From: a virus
Strand: one strand, 5' to 3'
Length of the DNA stretch: 21,100 bases
IMG/VR virus record: IMGVR_UViG_3300043410_000577
Span: 1 to 21,100 of that record
Of the stretch, positions 1,987 to 21,100 are shown in pieces. The position numbers and the translations under genes are program-made. The notes below the pieces were generated by a model that saw only the letters and a program-made list of their open reading frames with translations, was not told the DNA's origin and did no database searches. Each line of letters starts with the position of its first letter. The stretch's first letter is position 1.

Positions 1987-2211
1987 ATTGAATAGGTGTT
2001 TAGCTACTCCCACCACAGGAGCCCTAAACTGAGCTGTAACTACTCTGTCTACGTATTTTATTTCTATGGAAGCAGTTAGCGTTCTGCTCCCAAGGTTTTT
2101 TGAGTATCCCCTATCTGGGGACTCTAGGTCAAGTCCTTGCGTACCTAGCAGTTTCTATGGTGATTGCCTCCACCCTAATCAATAACGGTTGATTAGACCC
2201 GGGTGTTAAAC
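1987..2211 (-). ncRNA. candidate structured RNA between tRNA-Gly and element E1
   Basis: No convincing ORF or tRNA in 225 nt. Several stable hairpins are visible: CTAGGT/ACCTAG (2124-2148), CCCC/GGGG (2108-2120), AATCAA/TTGATT (2177-2194), and a GTTTAG-GCTCC stem pairing with GGAG-TA-GCTAAAC at about 1996-2030. A sequence at about 2034-2050 (AGAGTAG-TTA-CAGC) resembles the left half of the E elements but has no complementary partner. Function unknown; inferred to be an RNA from the density of stems and its position in a tRNA transcript. Confidence 0.4.
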
Positions 2212-2378
2212 AGGATAGCTTTCTACTTTTTGTTTTTATCGAGGAGACTTATCGAAACTCCTCTATCTGGGTCTGCCTTCAAGTATGACCTTCAATGTCC
2301 TCGGGCGAACCTCTGAACTCCAATCATACCCAACATTGCCAGCGTTCCATAGTAATATATGGTTGCTGTAACTATCCT
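2212..2378 (-). repeat. E element 1, carrying a pseudoknot-capable insert
   Basis: Outer stem AGGATAG (minus strand, 2378-2372) pairs with CTATCCT (2218-2212). The left arm is followed by TTA and the invariant CAGCA. TTTT precedes it, and the right arm is followed by GTTT. The roughly 140-nt interior contains interleaved complementary pairs: 2283-2288 with 2324-2329, and 2293-2298 with 2333-2338, which is an H-type pseudoknot topology. It also has an 6-bp GAGGAG/CTCCTC hairpin at 2240-2262. No tRNA halves were recognised in this copy. It starts 7 nt after the CCA of tRNA-Thr. Confidence 0.6.
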
Positions 2379-3751: not shown

Positions 3752-3827
3752 TGGCGCCTCGTAGGGGTTTCGATCCCCTTGCCTCCGCAGTGACAGTGCG
3801 GTGCTCTCCCGATTGAGCTAACGAAGC
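3752..3827 (-). tRNA. tRNA-Asp(GTC), canonical copy
   Basis: Acceptor GCTTCGT/ACGAGGC, anticodon arm CCGCA-CTGTCAC-TGCGG, discriminator G73, encoded CCA. A second Asp(GTC), interrupted by a 48-nt insert, is at 7812-7934. Confidence 0.93.
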
Positions 3828-4217: not shown

Positions 4218-4283
4218 ACATTAATGTCCTACAGCTTTAGTAGGCCTCTCACTCTTGCGAATGACGCAGTCACACGTTAATGT
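4218..4283 (-). repeat. stem-closed spacer between tRNA-Leu(TAG) and tRNA-Tyr
   Basis: ACATTAA (4218-4224) and TTAATGT (4277-4283) close a three-way junction with two internal hairpins on the transcribed strand: CATTC-GCAA-GAGTG (GNRA tetraloop) and CCTAC/GTAGG. It is probably a processing structure or small RNA. Confidence 0.45.
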
Positions 4284-4290
4284 AATAACT

Positions 4291-4377: not shown

Positions 4378-4473
4378 CATATTAAAACACACTCATCACT
4401 TTCGGACTAACAAGTCCCGGTGTGAAGTCCTTACAACCTAGAACTATGTCTAAGTAAAGTGTGTTTTAATATG
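4378..4473 (-). repeat. 16-bp stem-closed spacer RNA between tRNA-Glu and tRNA-Leu
   Basis: A perfect 16-bp inverted repeat (4378-4393 with 4458-4473) encloses 64 nt. The interior has a TCAC/GTGA stem topped by GGACT-TGTT-AGTCC with a GAAA bulge, plus a TAGA/TCTA hairpin. The right arm overlaps the CCA of tRNA-Glu, so folding of this stem would compete with the tRNA 3' end. A long stem like this is a likely RNase III-type processing site. Confidence 0.5.
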
Positions 4474-6555: not shown

Positions 6556-6564
6556 ATAGAAAAC

Positions 6565-6679
6565 AGGTTCTCTTTTTTCGTGCTCCCATTACACCACAGT
6601 GGCGACCAACCCACTGCCGGGATTCGAACCCGGACCCTCTTTTTTGCAGAAAGATTATTTTGATTGCTGAAAAGAACCT
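6565..6679 (-). tRNA. circularly permuted tRNA-Cys-like gene within E element 7
   Basis: On the transcribed strand the order is: AGGTTCT, TTT, CAGCA, then anticodon arm TCTTT-CTGCAAA-AAAGA (6654-6638; anticodon GCA), 4-nt variable region, T arm CCGGG-TTCGAAT-CCCGG (6633-6617), acceptor 3' strand CAGTGG, an 8-nt linker, acceptor 5' strand CCACTG (6602-6597), D arm, then AGAACCT and TTTT. Rejoined at position 26/27 it makes a full tRNA with Cys anticodon and U73. Oddities: no encoded CCA (other tRNAs here have it), a 1-72 mismatch, and the string AAAAAAGAG occurring in both halves, possibly a trace of tandem duplication. The outer 7-bp stem AGGTTCT/AGAACCT belongs to the E family. Confidence 0.7.
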
Positions 6680-6695
6680 TAACGGTCAATAAAAC

Positions 6696-6805
6696 AGGAT
6701 ACATTCTTGACGAATGCTCTACCGAGTGAGCTAATCACGCATGAAGCGTAATGTTGGAATCGAACCAACTACCTATCGTTTGATAGAATTTGCTGTATGT
6801 ATCCT
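6696..6805 (-). tRNA. circularly permuted tRNA-like gene within E element 2
   Basis: Transcribed order: TTTT, AGGATAC, ATA, CAGCA, anticodon 3' region, T arm GTTGG-TTCGATT-CCAAC (6769-6753), acceptor 3' strand ATTACGC (6752-6746), 5-nt linker, acceptor 5' strand GCGTGAT (6740-6734), D arm with GCTC/GAGC, anticodon 5' region, GTATCCT, G, TTTT. The acceptor halves pair over 7 bp (one G-U). The anticodon arm must be assembled from both ends (TTCGT with ACGAT, 4 of 5 pairs); the best loop reads CTATCAA, giving an unusual ATC, so identity is unresolved. No CCA encoded. It lies 5 nt after the CCA of tRNA-Gly(GCC). Confidence 0.65.
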
Positions 6806-7592: not shown

Positions 7593-7624
7593 GTCGTTCT
7601 CCTTTTGAACATTAAAAAAAATAC

Positions 7625-7679
7625 AGGATGCTTATTTTTAGATTAAAAGTCTAATTATAAAATTTGCTGGACGCATCCT
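7625..7679 (-). repeat. E element 3 (no insert)
   Basis: 55 bp: AGGATGC/GCATCCT outer stem, GTC, CAGCA, then an AT-rich loop containing TTAGA/TCTAA, TTTT before the left arm. It begins 5 nt after the CCA of the two-T-arm tRNA at 7685. Confidence 0.65.
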
Positions 7680-7684
7680 AAAAC

Positions 7685-7806
7685 TGGTGTGTAAGGAAGG
7701 AGTTGAACCTTCAACTGGACCATCCTAAGCGACTGCCGCCACCCAAGGGAGTCGAACCCTTAGCCACGGACTGCCGCCCGGGTGTATACCGTTTCACTAC
7801 TTACAC
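7685..7806 (-). tRNA. aberrant tRNA-like gene with two T-arm motifs
   Basis: Outer features are tRNA-like: acceptor GTGTAAG/CTTACAC fully paired, a Leu-type D arm, T arm GAAGG-TTCAACT-CCTTC, encoded CCA. The middle is 71 nt instead of about 23, with a second T-arm-like hairpin AAGGG-TTCGACT-CCCTT flanked by direct repeats of GGCGGCAGTC. The extra length (about 48 nt) equals the insert in the adjacent tRNA-Asp, but the E-type motif is absent. No anticodon arm with U33 can be assigned with confidence (CTTAGGA, anticodon TAG, is one possibility). It may be a recombined or nested tRNA, or a pseudogene. Confidence 0.5.
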
Positions 7807-7811
7807 ATATT

Positions 7812-7934
7812 TGGTGTCGCTGCTGGGATTCGAACCCAGATTCCTTCCTTGACATGGATTAAAGAAATATGCTGAACGTAACCTAAAACAGGCTCACCCT
7901 TTTATAAGTGTCCTAACCATTAGACGACAGCGAC
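7812..7934 (-). tRNA. tRNA-Asp(GTC) interrupted by a 48-nt insert
   Basis: Acceptor GTCGCTG/CAGCGAC, D arm, T arm CTGGG-TTCGAAT-CCCAG and CCA are canonical, but the gene is 123 nt long. Removing 7858-7905 (or 7859-7906; one shared T makes the junction ambiguous) restores the anticodon arm CTTCC-ATGTCAA-GGAAG, a 75-nt tRNA-Asp. The insert lies in the 5' strand of the anticodon stem (about position 29/30), not in the loop. Confidence 0.8.
7858..7905 (-). repeat. E element 6: permuted copy as an intron-like insert
   Basis: The insert carries the same motif as the other E elements in permuted order: right arm GTGAGCCTG, TTTT, left arm AGGTTAC, GTT, CAGCA. The arms pair over 7 bp with one bulged G, closed by the TTTT loop. 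Exon CACTT can also pair with insert AGGGTG around the 5' junction. At 48 nt it is too short for a known group I or II intron. Confidence 0.6.
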
Positions 7935-8550: not shown

Positions 8551-8625
8551 TGGTGGAGGACCAGGGTATCGAACCCTTGTAGTCACGATGCTTGCAAAGC
8601 AACGCCGCCGCCCTCGGCTCCCCCC
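8551..8625 (-). tRNA. tRNA-Ala(TGC), copy 2
   Basis: G3-U70 present, anticodon loop TTGCAAG, encoded CCA. The acceptor (7-66) and T stem are weaker than in copy 1, and the D arm is unusually GC-rich. Confidence 0.8.
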
Positions 8626-8631
8626 ATTATT

Positions 8632-8710
8632 TGGCTCCGCGTGTGAGGATCGAACTCACCTAACCACTGATTAACAGTCAGGTCCCTGCACCTTGCTTGG
8701 ATTTCGCGGA
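8632..8710 (-). tRNA. tRNA-Asn(GTT), copy 2, degenerate
   Basis: Anticodon arm CCTGA-CTGTTAA-TCAGT, T arm GTGAG-TTCGATC-CTCAC, encoded CCA. The D arm is irregular, and position 7-66 is mismatched. Confidence 0.8.
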
Positions 8711-8793: not shown

Positions 8794-8802
8794 ATAAAAA
8801 AC

Positions 8803-8859
8803 AGGATTCGCTTTTTGCTTTTTTTCAATAAAAGTTTTTTAATTTGCTGAATGAATCCT
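8803..8859 (-). repeat. E element 4 (no insert)
   Basis: 57 bp: AGGATTC/GAATCCT outer stem, ATT, CAGCA, AT-rich loop; TTTT on both sides. It starts 5 nt after the CCA of tRNA-Gln and ends 9 nt before tRNA-Glu. Confidence 0.65.
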
Positions 8860-8938: not shown

Positions 8939-8947
8939 ACAAAAAAC

Positions 8948-9008
8948 AGGATAGCTTTTGTCGCTAGACAACCATAAGTTTAGCTTAAAAGTTTGCTGTA
9001 ACTATCCT
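8948..9008 (-). repeat. E element 5 (no insert)
   Basis: 61 bp: AGGATAG/CTATCCT outer stem, TTA, CAGCA, loop without tRNA sequence; TTTT on both sides. It starts 5 nt after the CCA of tRNA-Ile and ends 9 nt before tRNA-Gln. Confidence 0.65.
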
Positions 9009-9940: not shown

Positions 9941-10447
9941 TTAACTATTTAATACTTTAGCAACACTATTCATTACACTAGAAATACGACCAATGTCACG
10001 AAGTTGTTCTACTGTGTAGCCTTCCTTCTTCAATGTGTCATAATGTGCCTTAACACAGAAGTGACACTTACCAACAATACTTGCAGCCAAGCTGAACGCT
10101 TCGAAGTTTGCTTTTGTTGTTCCGCCATGCGATGCGATAGCGTTCATGCGTAACTGTGCTGGCAATCCTTTTAGCTGTTCATCGTCTGCCATTTCAACAT
10201 ATGGATACCATACATTGTTCTGTGCCATAATACTTGCAGCAGTCATTGCTGACTCTGCATGTACTGGACTATCTGCTAACAAGATACTCAATACTTTGCC
10301 GTTACCAGTTGCAGCCAATGCTGCTACAGCACATCCTATAGCAACATCGGCATCTAATGTACTACGCAAAAGGACAGCGTCTAAGTTTAACTTAGTGTCC
10401 TTTGCGTATTCTGGCAACGCACTTTTAATAGTGTCGTTGAATGCCAT
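9941..10447 (-). CDS. ahpD: AhpD-like alkyl hydroperoxidase (reductase partner of AhpC)
   Basis: 168 aa, close to the size of Mycobacterium AhpD (177). The catalytic set E116, C128-x-x-C131, H135 (KCHFCVKAH) matches the E/CxxC/H proton-relay site of AhpD, which recycles AhpC through a dihydrolipoyl-linked system. The helical CMD-type body includes a MxxMNAIASHGG-like segment. ATG overlaps the TAA of ahpC by one base (TAATG), with GGGGAG 9 nt upstream, so expression is coupled at stoichiometric levels. Carriage of AhpD by a phage is unusual; it looks like a recruited bacterial operon, although base composition matches the neighbours. Confidence 0.92.
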   Translation of the reverse strand: MAFNDTIKSALPEYAKDTKLNLDAVLLRSTLDADVAIGCAVAALAATGNGKVLSILLADSPVHAESAMTAASIMAQNNVWYPYVEMADDEQLKGLPAQLRMNAIASHGGTTKANFEAFSLAASIVGKCHFCVKAHYDTLKKEGYTVEQLRDIGRISSVMNSVAKVLNS

Positions 10448-10986
10448 TATAGTGTCTCCCCGCCTACTGTACGGTTACATGCACATAGTTCGCCAGTTTG
10501 CAATGCGTCAAGAATACGCAATGTTTCTTCTGGGCTACGGCCAACGTTCAAGTTATTAACAGTAACGTGTTGGATAACGTTTTCTGGGTCAACAATGAAT
10601 GTTGCGCGAAGTGCTGCACCTGCTGGAGCATAGAATACACCAAGTTGTTCAATCAATGACAACTCACCACGCTGTGTGTCTGCAAACTGTGTATGTGTGA
10701 TTTTCTGTAAGTCTGGGTGTGCTTTTTGCCAAGCAATTTTACAGAATTCGTTATCTGTAGAACCTGTTAGCAATACTGCGTCACGATCTGCAAAGTCACC
10801 TGCTAGTTTATCGTACGCTACAATTTCTGTAGGGCAAACGAATGTGAAGTCCTTTGGGTAGTAAACGATTACTTTCCACTTACCAGCAAAACTTTCATCT
10901 GTAATATCAAAGAAAGCATCTTCTGGTTGTCCTGGCTTAACACCAGTGATTGCGAATTTTTCTAATTTATGTCCAACTGTTTTCAT
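10447..10986 (-). CDS. ahpC: AhpC-type 2-Cys peroxiredoxin
   Basis: 179 aa. Peroxidatic Cys51 in FTFVCPTE, with the conserved Thr48 and Pro52. The C-terminus has the Cys168-Ala-Cys170 pair (GELCACNR), as in AhpC proteins that work with AhpD (Mycobacterium-type CxC) rather than the single resolving Cys of AhpF-linked enzymes. It reduces H2O2, organic peroxides and peroxynitrite in the cytoplasm. Strong Shine-Dalgarno AAAGGAG before the ATG, and a promoter at 11045-11073. The downstream ahpD completes the system. It probably protects the infected cell or phage enzymes from oxidative stress. Confidence 0.95.
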   Translation of the reverse strand: MKTVGHKLEKFAITGVKPGQPEDAFFDITDESFAGKWKVIVYYPKDFTFVCPTEIVAYDKLAGDFADRDAVLLTGSTDNEFCKIAWQKAHPDLQKITHTQFADTQRGELSLIEQLGVFYAPAGAALRATFIVDPENVIQHVTVNNLNVGRSPEETLRILDALQTGELCACNRTVGGETL

Positions 10987-12906: not shown

Positions 12907-14304
12907 TTATTTGCGAGCATTTGCCCGAACTTGCTCAAAAGTAATTTCTTTTACAAGTTTACCATCTCGGTACACTTCTTCCAGCATGTTAACAAATGGT
13001 TCAACTGCTTTATCGTGCCAACCAGTAGGTTGATTAACAGCAGTTATCCATTCGCCACCTGATTTCCAAAGTTGGATACGGCCTGCTTTAGATTTCTTAC
13101 CAGGATCAGTAATTGGATCTTTAACAACATCACGTTCTTCACCGTTTACAATAATGCTAGAGCATTTCATTGCAAACTTTTGAGTATCGCGATCTAGTTG
13201 TTGTAGCAACGCACCGCCCATACCAAACGCAATGTTATCTGCACTCCACCCATATGCTTGGAATCCACCAAGGATCATACGGATTGAATGTTCGTTAACA
13301 CCATCACCTTGGATCAAACGTACATTGTTAAGTACTTTAAAACCCTTGGCGTTTGTAGTATATCCAAACTTTTGTCCAAGAATCTCAACTAGTTTGCGGC
13401 AAACAACATCTGGTTCGCCGGAATCAGGACGGATGACAACAGTAGCGCCAGAATCAATAACCTCTTGTCGGAGCTCTTCTCCCCAAAGTTTCGATGCGGC
13501 ATTAAAAACATCATAGCTATCAGAAACCACAGCAACAATGCTGCCAGGTTTAGCAAAGTTATTAAGCATATTACGATAAGCATCTACTTCACCATCACGG
13601 CCCCAGCTAGTAATTGTTGAGTGCTCGGCGGCAGGGATAGAAAAGCCGCTAATCCCAGCATCATAGTATTCGCGAGCATACAGAACACCAGAAATAGTAT
13701 CACTGCCCATGAAGTTAATAAGGTGTGATGCACCTCCGATACCCGCTGATTCCATGCTAGAAACACCACGAGCACCGAAATCGTGCAACTTAAAGTCAAT
13801 AAGGGAAGGGTCACCTGTAGTCTCCAAATAGTTAAGGATCACTTCGCGGATCTTGTGCGACTGTGTTGCCACAGTAGTAGGATACCAAATTGCACGAAGC
13901 AATGCAGTTTCCAACCAAGTTGTTAGCCAGAAACATTCTGGATCTGTGTTTTCAATTGTTGCAAGCACCTGCTTGACAGGTACAACTGTTCCTTCGGGGA
14001 CGGCACGGATGACAACTGGGAGGTATCCATTGTGCTTGTCAAGAATGTACTGCCATCCTGCTCTGTTGAAAGGCTCACCGTGTGCGGTAAGGATTTCATC
14101 AGCCACATCAATGTCTTGTTGTGTGATGGGCTCGAGTAAGTACTCTTTAATGAATGCCTGGAGTCCAAAGAATACTGTCTGATCGTAACGTCCGCCTCGG
14201 GATTCAATGTAAGAATATACACCTGTAGTACCTGCTGGGTATTGTTTGAACATGCTAACTTTGTAGCTGTCAGTGTTAAGAATGATGTTTTTTGCTAATT
14301 TCAT
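12907..14304 (-). CDS. nadV: nicotinamide phosphoribosyltransferase (NAMPT)
   Basis: 465 aa, in the family range (460-490). Converts nicotinamide plus PRPP to NMN, the first step of the two-step salvage to NAD+. Diagnostic blocks: YKVSMFKQYP near the N-terminus (human-type DSYK), KLHDFGARGVSS, EHSTITSWGRDGE with the catalytic His, VVIRPDSGEP (PRPP/ribose-binding), IQGDGVN and a final PF-VNMLEEVYRDG segment. Good ribosome binding site (AAGGAG, 7 nt). Located 44 nt downstream of nadM-nudix, in one operon from the promoter at 15450. Large phages such as KVP40 carry the same pair, and NAD+ resynthesis from nicotinamide can counter NADase-based defence. Confidence 0.96.
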   Translation of the reverse strand: MKLAKNIILNTDSYKVSMFKQYPAGTTGVYSYIESRGGRYDQTVFFGLQAFIKEYLLEPITQQDIDVADEILTAHGEPFNRAGWQYILDKHNGYLPVVIRAVPEGTVVPVKQVLATIENTDPECFWLTTWLETALLRAIWYPTTVATQSHKIREVILNYLETTGDPSLIDFKLHDFGARGVSSMESAGIGGASHLINFMGSDTISGVLYAREYYDAGISGFSIPAAEHSTITSWGRDGEVDAYRNMLNNFAKPGSIVAVVSDSYDVFNAASKLWGEELRQEVIDSGATVVIRPDSGEPDVVCRKLVEILGQKFGYTTNAKGFKVLNNVRLIQGDGVNEHSIRMILGGFQAYGWSADNIAFGMGGALLQQLDRDTQKFAMKCSSIIVNGEERDVVKDPITDPGKKSKAGRIQLWKSGGEWITAVNQPTGWHDKAVEPFVNMLEEVYRDGKLVKEITFEQVRANARK

Positions 14305-14348
14305 GATAAACTCCTTATCGTTTGTATTACAGCCTTTGCGTCTATCGC

Positions 14349-15383
14349 TTAGGCACCCACGAAGTGTTGTAGGATTTCGTAGTGGTCTTCAAAGCAGTCT
14401 TCCGACCGGACTTCTGCAATAGGCACCCACTTAGCCTTTTCTGCATCATCACTACCTTTGACTTTTGGAAGTTCGCCGTCAGGCAGGACAATGTGGAAAG
14501 CGTGTGTAATTATACGTCCACGAGGACTTCTGTCAATAGCGTCAAACACTTTACTACGAACAATATTGCCACGTAGTACAGGTTCTGGTACTTTGATTTT
14601 AGTTTCTTCGCGGAGTTCGCGCAACATTGCGGCTTCTACTGATTTGTCAGTATTAGCGTTGACGTAGCCGCCGGGCAAAGCCCACAAACCTTTACCAGGT
14701 TCGGCACGGCGACGGATCATTAGTACGTGACCAGATTGGATAACCACTGCGTCAGCAGTACTAAAGATAGGAGGATAAGGTAACGAAGCATATTGTTTCT
14801 TGTAAGTTTCTACAAATTCACGTTCACGAATAATTTGTTCGTATTCTGGGCAAGTAGAAAAACTTGCCAAGAACTCGTATGTAGTAGAAGGAACAACTGC
14901 TTTAATAAAGTTCATGTTAACATCACGCTTGAAAAACAAGTCACGAATGTTAACAGCACTAAGCGGCTCAATTTGTTCTACGTTGACAAAGTCCCACTGC
15001 GGAAACATATCAAGGTAAAAACTAGATTCATCTTTCTTGTGGCCAATAATACCAATTTTAAATTCGCCAGGTCCTTTGGCATCATAGATTGCGTCATTAA
15101 CAATCTTTTGAACACGAACAGCCCATGCTTGGTCGTTGTAAATAGTGTCTGGGTTGCCGTTTACTGACACAGAGATGGCCATGCCGCGGGTAGCATACTT
15201 AATCATCTGCTCGCGTTCTGCGACAGTAAATGGGTTTTTATAAGTGCGTGGTTGATTTGCGGAGCCAGCAACAACAATTAGTTTGTCAGTAAGTGCAGTA
15301 GCACGGCGTACAATCTCTAAGTGAGCATTGTGAAATGGTTGAAACCGTCCGATGAGGACAAGGGCATCATATTGCTTTGACAT
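14349..15383 (-). CDS. nadM: bifunctional NMN adenylyltransferase / Nudix hydrolase
   Basis: 344 aa, two domains. The N-terminal NMNAT domain has GRFQPFHNAH (residues 12-21; HxxH nucleotide-transfer motif) and SAVNIRDLFF (ISTxxxR-like). It makes NAD+ from NMN and ATP. The C-terminal Nudix domain (about residues 205-340) has a full Nudix box GX5EX7REUXEE (GGYVNANTDKSVEAAMLREL, then REETKI), expected to cleave ADP-ribose or related compounds. This matches the bifunctional NadM-Nudix type of Synechocystis and phage KVP40. Ribosome binding site AAAGGA. Together with NAMPT it forms a complete nicotinamide-to-NAD+ route (NARP2-type). Confidence 0.95.
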   Translation of the reverse strand: MSKQYDALVLIGRFQPFHNAHLEIVRRATALTDKLIVVAGSANQPRTYKNPFTVAEREQMIKYATRGMAISVSVNGNPDTIYNDQAWAVRVQKIVNDAIYDAKGPGEFKIGIIGHKKDESSFYLDMFPQWDFVNVEQIEPLSAVNIRDLFFKRDVNMNFIKAVVPSTTYEFLASFSTCPEYEQIIREREFVETYKKQYASLPYPPIFSTADAVVIQSGHVLMIRRRAEPGKGLWALPGGYVNANTDKSVEAAMLRELREETKIKVPEPVLRGNIVRSKVFDAIDRSPRGRIITHAFHIVLPDGELPKVKGSDDAEKAKWVPIAEVRSEDCFEDHYEILQHFVGA

Positions 15384-18825: not shown

Positions 18826-19140
18826 TTACTTCTTTCTTTGTTTGGTGCGTTTGACAGGAATCGAACCTGCTTCCTGGAGTTTTAGAGGCTCCGTGTCATC
18901 CATTGACATCAAACGCTTTAAATCTTTATGTTTGACAATTATAACAATTTTGTATGCATTGTCAACTTTAATTGGCAAATCTAAATGCACTGTTACTTCC
19001 GGGCCTGCCATGCTGACAACACGATCATTGCCAACAGTACCAGCAAACGGAATTCCATTGAATTTTCCAAAGACACGATCTCCTATTTCGTATTTAGGTT
19101 TGTATGCGTTCTTCTCAAAATAATCTGCTAAATTTCCCAT
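18826..19140 (-). CDS. small hypothetical protein whose 3' end contains a tRNA
   Basis: 104 aa from the ATG at 19140, where the -10 element ends 6 nt upstream, so the transcript is probably leaderless or nearly so. The N-terminal 70 residues (MGNLADYFEKNAYKPKYEIG, then DRVFGKFNGIPFAGTVGNDR) look like a small beta-barrel/SH3-type domain. The last 25 or so residues are the reading of the tRNA-like gene at 18843-18916. The normal C-terminus may therefore have been extended or replaced when the tRNA arose or inserted. Confidence 0.75.
   Translation of the reverse strand: MGNLADYFEKNAYKPKYEIGDRVFGKFNGIPFAGTVGNDRVVSMAGPEVTVHLDLPIKVDNAYKIVIIVKHKDLKRLMSMDDTEPLKLQEAGSIPVKRTKQRKK
18843..18916 (-). tRNA. 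amber-suppressor-like tRNA(CTA)
   Basis: Acceptor GCGTTTG/CAAACGC, T arm with GCAGG-TTCGATT-CCTGT, encoded CCA. Anticodon arm GGAGC-CTCTAAA-ACTCC with U33 gives anticodon CUA, which reads the amber codon UAG. The 31-39 pair is C-A, and position 8 is A. It lies away from the main array, inside a coding sequence, with its own promoter. Amino acid identity is unknown. Confidence 0.8.
18938..18965 (-). promoter_or_regulatory. promoter of the tRNA(CTA), inside a CDS
   Basis: TTGACA (18960-18965), 16 bp, TATAAT (18938-18943), about 22 nt upstream of the tRNA 5' end. It allows expression of the tRNA independently of its host gene. Confidence 0.75.
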
Positions 19141-20599: not shown

Positions 20600-20649
20600 A
20601 TAAAGCCTCCTTGTATATTATTAACGCCGCAGGCCTAGAAAAAGTTTAC

Positions 20650-20675
20650 AAAAAAATAGGACCCGAAGGTCCTAT
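20650..20675 (-). terminator. intrinsic terminator of the tmRNA transcript
   Basis: ATAGGACC-TTCG-GGTCCTAT, an 8-bp stem with UUCG loop, followed by TTTTTT on the minus strand. Confidence 0.92.
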
Positions 20676-20719
20676 TACTATTTTGGATGACAAGGCATAG
20701 CTGCCTCGGTTCCCGCAGG

Positions 20720-20758
20720 TTATTAAGCTGCTAAAGCAAACTCGCTGTCGTTAACAGC
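20720..20758 (-). other. tmRNA tag reading frame
   Basis: Resume codon GCT at 20758, then AVNDSEFALAA and tandem TAA TAA stops. The ALAA end is the ClpXP/ClpAP degron; the body resembles betaproteobacterial tags (type ANDxxFALAA) with an extra Val. Confidence 0.9.
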
Positions 20759-20880
20759 TACGTCTACTTGGAAGAACTGAAATGCTGATTTTGCATTTAT
20801 AGGTTTTGCTTGATTTACGGTCATCGCCTACCGTGTTGCCGTCTCTACTATCTACCCCTGTCGAAACCATGGCAGGCCCA

Positions 20881-21018
20881 TCATAAGGAATCTACGATTG
20901 AAGCTGATAACATATACATTAACAGACTGACTAAAAGTATTCCTAATATCACAGGAGCAAATACAAATAATCCTGTTAAGAATATAGTAGCCAGTATTTT
21001 AATATGTTTCTTATTCAT
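20881..21018 (-). CDS. 45-aa membrane protein nested in the tmRNA intervening segment
   Basis: ATG at 21018 with AAGGA 6 nt upstream; protein starts MNKKHIKILATIFLTGLFVF, then a very hydrophobic run (about residues 8-38), a transmembrane helix or pair, and a short end (ASIVDSL). The TGA stop ends 2 nt before the 5' nucleotide of the tmRNA coding piece. It fills the whole region that normally is a discarded intervening sequence. Function unknown; a small toxin, holin-like or regulatory peptide is possible. Confidence 0.65.
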   Translation of the reverse strand: MNKKHIKILATIFLTGLFVFAPVILGILLVSLLMYMLSASIVDSL

Positions 21019-21100
21019 CAAACTTCCTTATGGTGGACCTGGCGGGAGTCGAACCCGCGTCCAGAAGTCCTTCGCTTTGAAGGGATTACAACAATTCTTT

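Follow-up and report, generated by a model that had tools for sequence, protein, structure and literature searches.

The window analysed here is a 21.1-kb virus record, which carries a dense array of tRNA genes on its minus strand between 1.0 and 9.1 kb. Within this array lies a tRNA of 123 nt including its CCA (7934-7812), the anticodon stem of which is split by 48 nt. As a preliminary description of the locus had it, the interruption is found at these coordinates. Indeed, once the flanks are joined ARAGORN draws a complete tRNA-Asp(GTC) cloverleaf with 0 mispairs; in the unjoined sequence it finds no tRNA unless introns are allowed, and the Rfam tRNA model bridges the insert with 44.8 bits. 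The same description called the joined product an exact tRNA-Asp(GTC). This holds for the shape and the anticodon but not for the identity elements, as the loop, ATGTCAA, has A at positions 32 and 38 and the discriminator base is A73, compared with CTGTCAC and G73 in the ordinary tRNA-Asp(GTC) of the same phage (Table 1). With that ordinary gene at hand, the phage does not depend on the tagged tRNA to decode Asp codons. As drawn, the window copy folds weakly (single-sequence fold z of -1.4).

The insert reads AAAAGGGTGAG-CCT-GTTTT-AGG-TTAC-GTT-CAGCA. The E motif that had been noticed there in permuted order is real: the same parts occur in open form elsewhere in the window, as AGG-NNNN-NNN-CAGCA, a cargo and then NNNN-CCT-GT, and the insert does correspond to the element flanking the permuted tRNAs, its two strands being connected in the opposite order. 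This arrangement is above chance, as it recurs in 31 distinct insert tRNAs with covarying tRNA stems. Because the flanking nucleotide is repeated, the window copy by itself fits an insert at 28/29 as well as one at 29/30 (7905-7858, minus strand). The site is set at 28/29 by the relatives L177, L191 and L162, in which the repeat is absent or different, and which fit 28/29 only or both readings, never 29/30 alone.

Table 1. Tagged, ordinary and E-bracketed RNAs of the window
Feature	Position	Strand	Sequence, score or basis
E-tagged tRNA	7812..7934	-	acceptor GTCGCTG/CAGCGAC, D arm, split anticodon arm (CT, insert, TCC-ATGTCAA-GGAAG), T arm, ACCA
48-nt insert (capped E tag and linkers)	7859..7906	-	28/29 reading
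E helix CCT/AGG with GTTTT closing loop	7882..7892	-	sequence
Conserved CAGCA of the E tag	7870..7874	-	letters required by the search patterns used
Ordinary tRNA-Asp(GTC), same phage	3752..3827	-	loop CTGTCAC, G73
RNA A, E-bracketed, permuted and tRNA-like: T arm, acceptor closed by TTCAT, D arm; topology like that of YrlA	6694..6805	-	RF02553 31.9 bits, below gathering score
Permuted tRNA-like RNA B	6563..6679	-	E-bracketed; anticodon arm TCTTT-CTGCAAA-AAAGA (Cys GCA)
Larger E-bracketed structured RNA	2210..2378	-	145-nt cargo; similar cargos in L135, L138, L153, L164, L189, L196
Short E RNA, tRNA-Lys(UUU) arm	7623..7679	-	TTAGA-CTTTTAA-TCTAA; covariance model 74.2 bits, in training set
Short E RNA, Ser UGA-like arm	8801..8859	-	CTTTT-ATTGAAA-AAAAG; 59.1 bits, E 2.5e-13, outside training set
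Short E RNA, GGTTGTCTAGCGACAA class	8946..9008	-	no anticodon hairpin recognised; 39 bits

Several other features of the window were recorded in passing, all of them on the minus strand apart from one gene region given without strand. At 7688-7806 lies a chimeric tRNA, to which a single tRNA contributes the acceptor and the D and T arms, and inside which a long stretch holds a second T-arm-like hairpin and the repeated GGCGGCAGTC; the Rfam tRNA model bridges it with 35.7 bits. Two tRNA-like genes with odd D arms (8632-8710, Asn GTT, and 8551-8625, Ala TGC) are missed by ARAGORN and by Rfam at its gathering score. The inter-tRNA spacers at 4380-4450, 4221-4290 and 1990-2210 look structured and have no Rfam match; in two of them the ends pair in a long closing stem (AAAACACAC...GTGTGTTTT is one instance). 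An isolated tRNA with a CTA anticodon lies far from the array (18843-18916; an amber suppressor, called Pyl by ARAGORN). At 12907-15383 there is an NAD salvage pair, an NAMPT-like NAPRTase and a nucleotidyltransferase-NUDIX fusion, and AhpC and CMD-family proteins are encoded at 9941-10986. A permuted two-piece tmRNA of betaproteobacterial type (20632-21100; RF04321, RF01850) runs off the window end. There is a hint of a betaproteobacterial host in this type and in one pattern match (L206) recovered from a Neisseriaceae MAG; L206 is itself a tRNA-array contig and probably a phage.

The E element in open and closed form

A scan of IMG/VR for open E elements around a tRNA-sized cargo returned 57 stretches, on contigs of up to 364 kb, and 206 distinct open elements were counted among the collected loci. 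The third stem position is AT in 96 cases, CG in 52, GC in 46 and TA in 10, and the fourth is CG in 95, GC in 69, TA in 20 and AT in 20. CAGCA stands 3 nt past AGGNNNN in all 206, where the pattern allowed 2-5. The covarying stem and this fixed spacing thus identify E as a real, selected RNA stem. It is usually encoded directly behind a tRNA, 126 of the 206 open elements starting no more than 7 nt past a tRNA CCA. The evidence throughout is comparative sequence analysis of metagenomic contigs. The loci were gathered by E patterns, and conservation of the pattern letters is therefore partly by construction, whereas the cargo results are not; P-values and counts take all sequences as independent and are uncorrected for relatedness. 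No Rfam family reaches its gathering score on E, no description of E was found in searches of an open-access library, and neither a permuted nor a 140-nt E RNA was found among the isolate phages of INPHARED. Likenesses to the kink-turn, to group II domain 5 and to CRISPR repeats were weighed by eye and dropped.

The closed form was collected with a pattern scan that gave 36 stretches, from which 31 distinct insert tRNAs were parsed on 31 phage contigs. In all 31 the insert lies at 28/29 and the acceptor stem covaries, and CCA is nearly universal. The tags are capped by GTCA, GACA, GTTA, GTAA, GTTTT and similar loops, and it is because of the first three of these that a strict pattern, with an AT step and a TTTT loop, had 0 matches. 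A loose pattern returned 120 loci, mostly chance; the relevant ones are the window itself, L086 as its near-twin, and L087, where an open E stands behind a tRNA-Trp. Two Bacteroidetes pattern matches (L207 and L208) have tRNA-free surroundings, look like chance and were set aside.

In an alignment of 21 of the insert tRNAs (A3), 96.9% of the drawn-structure cells are paired and both sides have changed in 13 of 26 pairs. Six of the seven acceptor pairs covary, with 98.6% of the acceptor cells paired; the five E pairs form in every one of the 21 sequences, and four of these five are invariant. This covariation indicates that the tRNA body is under selection. The outer anticodon pairs are CT/AG, CG/CG or AC/GT, complementary every time, and pairs 27-28/42-43 and 29-31/39-41 sum to a normal 5-bp anticodon stem. 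The joined exons form a perfect cloverleaf in the window, but the relatives show A32 (27 of 31 insert tRNAs versus 7 of 1726 ordinary tRNAs of the same contigs, counts uncorrected for relatedness), 8-nt anticodon loops (7 of 31), degenerate T loops (L183; TGCAAAT in L195, L201 and L203) and shifting anticodons (GTC, TCT, TCG, TAC, CAC, TCC and GTT). Near-identical bodies can display GTC in one copy and TCT in another (L121 and L194), or GTC and an 8-nt loop (L196 and L178). The displayed loop of this tRNA-embedded form varies quickly inside a nearly constant frame, CCA-U-NNN-AA-GGA.

The preliminary description had considered the insert a sequence to be spliced out, and had judged its size insufficient for a group I or group II intron. 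The latter point is borne out: the insert is 48 nt long, these introns have a catalytic core and measure roughly 200 nt or more, and no such Rfam match exists in the window at gathering or relaxed thresholds. There could nevertheless be a miniature intron whose excision leaves a functional tRNA, whether the RNA splices itself or an unknown nuclease and ligase, of the phage or of its host, do so. The same reaction would circularise the tRNA of the permuted genes, as a natural permuted intron-exon arrangement. Such a process would account for the exact cloverleaf obtained from the joined flanks, for the constant 28/29 junction, shared by the capped tRNAs and the permuted L129 and L173 (CT, then CTC), for the covarying acceptor stem and the kept CCA, and for the use of one element in both topologies. 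However, the proposed search for a splicing endonuclease or RNA ligase gene yielded PF01974 in 0 and RtcB in 0 of 20 large E-bearing phage contigs, with positive controls in known genomes, and a T4-type RNA ligase in 1 of the 20. Moreover, anticodons change freely, 8-nt loops and A32 occur, permuted bodies are closed by TTCAT or TTTT or have no acceptor stem, and no insert-free version of the two main bodies was found in 2.9 million IMG/VR contigs, at exact-pattern sensitivity. Splicing would also be meaningless for the short E RNAs, which hold just an anticodon hairpin, and the phage already has its ordinary tRNA-Asp. Excision of the insert is thus not supported; the insert is probably not an intron, and we regard the miniature-intron explanation as unlikely.

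Cargos of the open E elements

Short cargos (45 nt or less, n=87) have a recurrent architecture. A 5-bp/7-nt hairpin with U33 and R37 is present in 49 of the 87, compared with a mean of 3.1 and a maximum of 8 in 200 dinucleotide shuffles, and 7 nt is by far the commonest loop size. When any 5-bp/7-nt hairpin is taken, 39 of 61 loops match, letter for letter, the anticodon loop of a real tRNA from these contigs (3.6% with permuted letters). The mimicked anticodons are those of Lys UUU (20), Ser UGA (7), Thr UGU (6), Arg UCU (5) and Tyr GUA (4), as well as Asn GUU and others. In a second alignment (A2), tag and anticodon stem both covary with 98.2% of the cells paired, and the covariation score of 0.448 is reached in 0 of 500 shuffles (0.093), slid controls giving at most 0.082. 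The covariance model of the short RNAs finds further copies in every large contig tried. By its 7-nt loop, U33, R37 and covarying 5-bp stem, the cargo of the short E RNAs is at the sequence level an anticodon arm, although some short cargos have no anticodon hairpin.

The mimics can be compared with the targets of a known nuclease. AriB of the PARIS system cuts tRNA-Lys(UUU), tRNA-Thr(UGU) and, less so, tRNA-Asn(GUU) between positions 40 and 41; its targets share U36-A-A-U39, and a U39 to A change abolishes cutting (PMC12409363). UAAU stands at 36-39 in 20 of 20 Lys(UUU), 6 of 6 Thr(UGU) and 5 of 5 Arg(UCU) E mimics, compared with 11 of 29, 20 of 49 and 0 of 34 ordinary phage tRNAs, respectively. 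Taken together, 31 of 31 mimics and 31 of 112 ordinary tRNAs carry it (Fisher p of about 2e-14, and about 2e-6 for Arg(UCU), relatedness uncorrected). The E. coli cut site, C40-A41, is altered in most Lys and Thr mimics. The ATGTCAA loop of the tRNA-embedded form lacks UAAU, and the match to AriB therefore rests on the short RNAs.

An action on translation or modification, with mimics that titrate synthetases or anticodon-loop modifying enzymes (the t6A37 and i6A37 machinery), has also to be considered. The short mimics mostly have U36 (34 of 58) or A36 (17 of 58), followed by A37 (45 of 58), and thus fall into the t6A and i6A classes; the short E RNAs of L121-L205 hardly ever have C36. This A/U bias may, however, be compositional, and modification leaves unexplained why even the Arg(UCU) mimics keep U39, a base that ordinary phage tRNAs with this anticodon almost always lack. 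We find this explanation quite improbable.

The longer, permuted cargos often show an anticodon arm too (Arg UCU, Ser UGA, Cys GCA and others), but the common class of RNA A, which folds with a z of -4.9, has none. In most permuted bodies the acceptor ends in a closed TTCAT, TTTT or similar loop, not in CCA, and it is missing altogether in L132 and L168; judged by their sequences, the permuted forms are mostly not maturable tRNAs. By eye, a C-A or A-C mismatch was seen at the middle pair 29/41 of the permuted L132, L147, L161 and L168. Cargos of 130-230 nt are other structured RNAs. Those of about 140 and 210 nt (2210-2378 in the window; L135, L138, L153, L164, L123, L189 and L196) often stand in tandem and share the internal motifs GGAG...TTGAAGG and AAAAGCAGTCAACAA; they could mimic another cellular RNA.

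The common topology of the permuted class, a stem followed by a permuted tRNA-like module with a closed acceptor, is that of a Y RNA. E could then be the stem to which Ro60/Rsr binds, and the permuted forms, as YrlA RNAs, could link a Ro-like protein with a nuclease. Indeed, the YrlA model RF02553 spans RNA A over its full length (31.9 bits) and scores 31.5 in L140 and 31.4 in L135. All these scores are nevertheless below the gathering score of 69, nearly all matching letters belong to the tRNA-like module, the stem is conserved in other letters than that of YrlA, and a gene for the partner protein (TROVE, PF05731; Rsr/Ro60) was found in 0 of the 20 E-bearing phage contigs searched. That E RNAs are phage Y RNAs seems to us improbable.

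It could finally be argued that all these loci are decaying or chimeric tRNA genes with local hairpins, terminators or processing sites, devoid of a function of their own. In favour of this are the dynamic nature of phage tRNA arrays, the presence of further odd tRNAs in the window and the GTTTT at the end of many E elements. Against this, the tag, the anticodon arms and the acceptor stems covary strongly, and the family recurs in dozens of contigs. Decay is thus refuted for the family at the sequence level and, as a general account, very improbable; the single window copy could still be inactive.

A proposed decoy function

We favour, with some caution, the reading that E tags a family of phage anticodon decoys, of which the interrupted tRNA-Asp would be the tRNA-embedded form. 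The sequences themselves show the tag, its open and closed topologies, the anticodon mimicry and the kept UAAU of the short Lys, Thr and Arg mimics, whereas the decoy action is inferred. E is the hairpin tag of a noncoding RNA family encoded inside large tRNA arrays. When closed, it projects between 28 and 29 from an otherwise complete, CCA-bearing tRNA body, which would be expressed and left unspliced. The tag would keep the RNA out of translation, as the ribosome is not expected to accommodate a hairpin at this place; it may also offer a shared handle through which the RNAs are stabilised or bound by a partner. The displayed anticodon loop would bind host tRNA-cutting enzymes as a decoy, the candidates being AriB of PARIS, PrrC/RloC, retron effectors, and VapC or colicin-like nucleases.

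For the short E RNAs, a decoy role is the best-supported function, because UAAU is kept and because there are precedents. A phage tRNA-Tyr counters retron-Eco7 (PMC11555353), and the short E RNAs include mimics of Tyr(GUA). Competition has been proposed twice by others: the tRNA-like domain of YrlA may competitively inhibit an anticodon nuclease (PMC7790460), and viral tRNAs may inhibit AriB by competition (PMC12409363). For the tRNA-embedded form the indications are indirect, namely the same tag, the same arrays and the fast-changing loop displayed in a nearly constant frame. Several observations weigh against the decoy reading. Acceptor covariation and the near-universal CCA also fit a tRNA that becomes functional after insert removal, the two parts of the anticodon stem make the normal 5 bp that splicing would need, the embedded loop is without UAAU, the window copy folds weakly, and some short cargos are not anticodon hairpins.

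A broader proposal, on which we are evenly divided, is that of a modular RNA counter-defence kit of large phages. One tag, opened, closed or moved by circular permutation, would be combined with interchangeable anticodon arms or tRNA bodies to give uncut competitive inhibitors of several host anticodon nucleases. If the decoy reading is true, phages counter tRNA-cutting immunity with dedicated RNA decoys, beyond replacing the cut tRNAs, and one could then read from the mimicked anticodons which tRNAs are cut by bacterial defences. It would also explain 'permuted' and 'split' phage tRNAs without any splicing, and provide a natural, modular scaffold for RNA inhibitors.

Comparison with known systems

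With YrlA (RF02553), E RNAs share a stem bracketing a tRNA-like module that is circularly permuted, keeps both its D and its T arm and is closed at the acceptor, as is found in RNAs A and B and their relatives. They differ from it by their stem letters, by the low model scores given above and by a cargo that is often just an anticodon arm. We know of no closed form of YrlA inside a tRNA.

A second likeness is to the Class I RNAs of Dictyostelium (RF01414), in which a short stem joins the ends and the Rfam consensus has ACAGCAA beside the 5' strand. These RNAs have the ends AAG...CUGU and a conserved 11-nt motif adjoining the 5' stem (PMC7919456). All six RF01414 matches seen (22-37 bits; in the window, L140 and L151) fall on E elements, among them the short RNA at 8801-8859 with 35.4 bits; the best, at 36.9 bits, is below the gathering score of 41.5. 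Unlike E RNAs, the Class I RNAs belong to eukaryotic amoebae, have their own promoter element and have no described anticodon cargo. The likeness could be convergence, and together with that to YrlA it raises a testable evolutionary question.

The tRNA introns and permuted tRNA genes of archaea and algae likewise involve small anticodon-arm inserts and permuted genes. E differs from them by its constant motif and by having no bulge-helix-bulge; no splicing endonuclease gene was found in the phage contigs searched, and the permuted bodies mostly appear unmaturable.

We place E in no known family and rate its kind as new, while the use of RNA mimics by phages as a counter-defence is an already known idea. 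A functional parallel in that respect is with the anti-nuclease tRNAs of phages (T5 tRNA-Lys/Thr/Asn against PARIS, tRNA-Tyr against retron-Eco7, and those of mycobacteriophage), which are likewise phage-encoded anticodon arms of the targeted tRNAs. These are, however, complete tRNAs that replace the cut ones and are mutated to avoid recognition, whereas E RNAs keep the recognition motif in molecules that look unable to translate.
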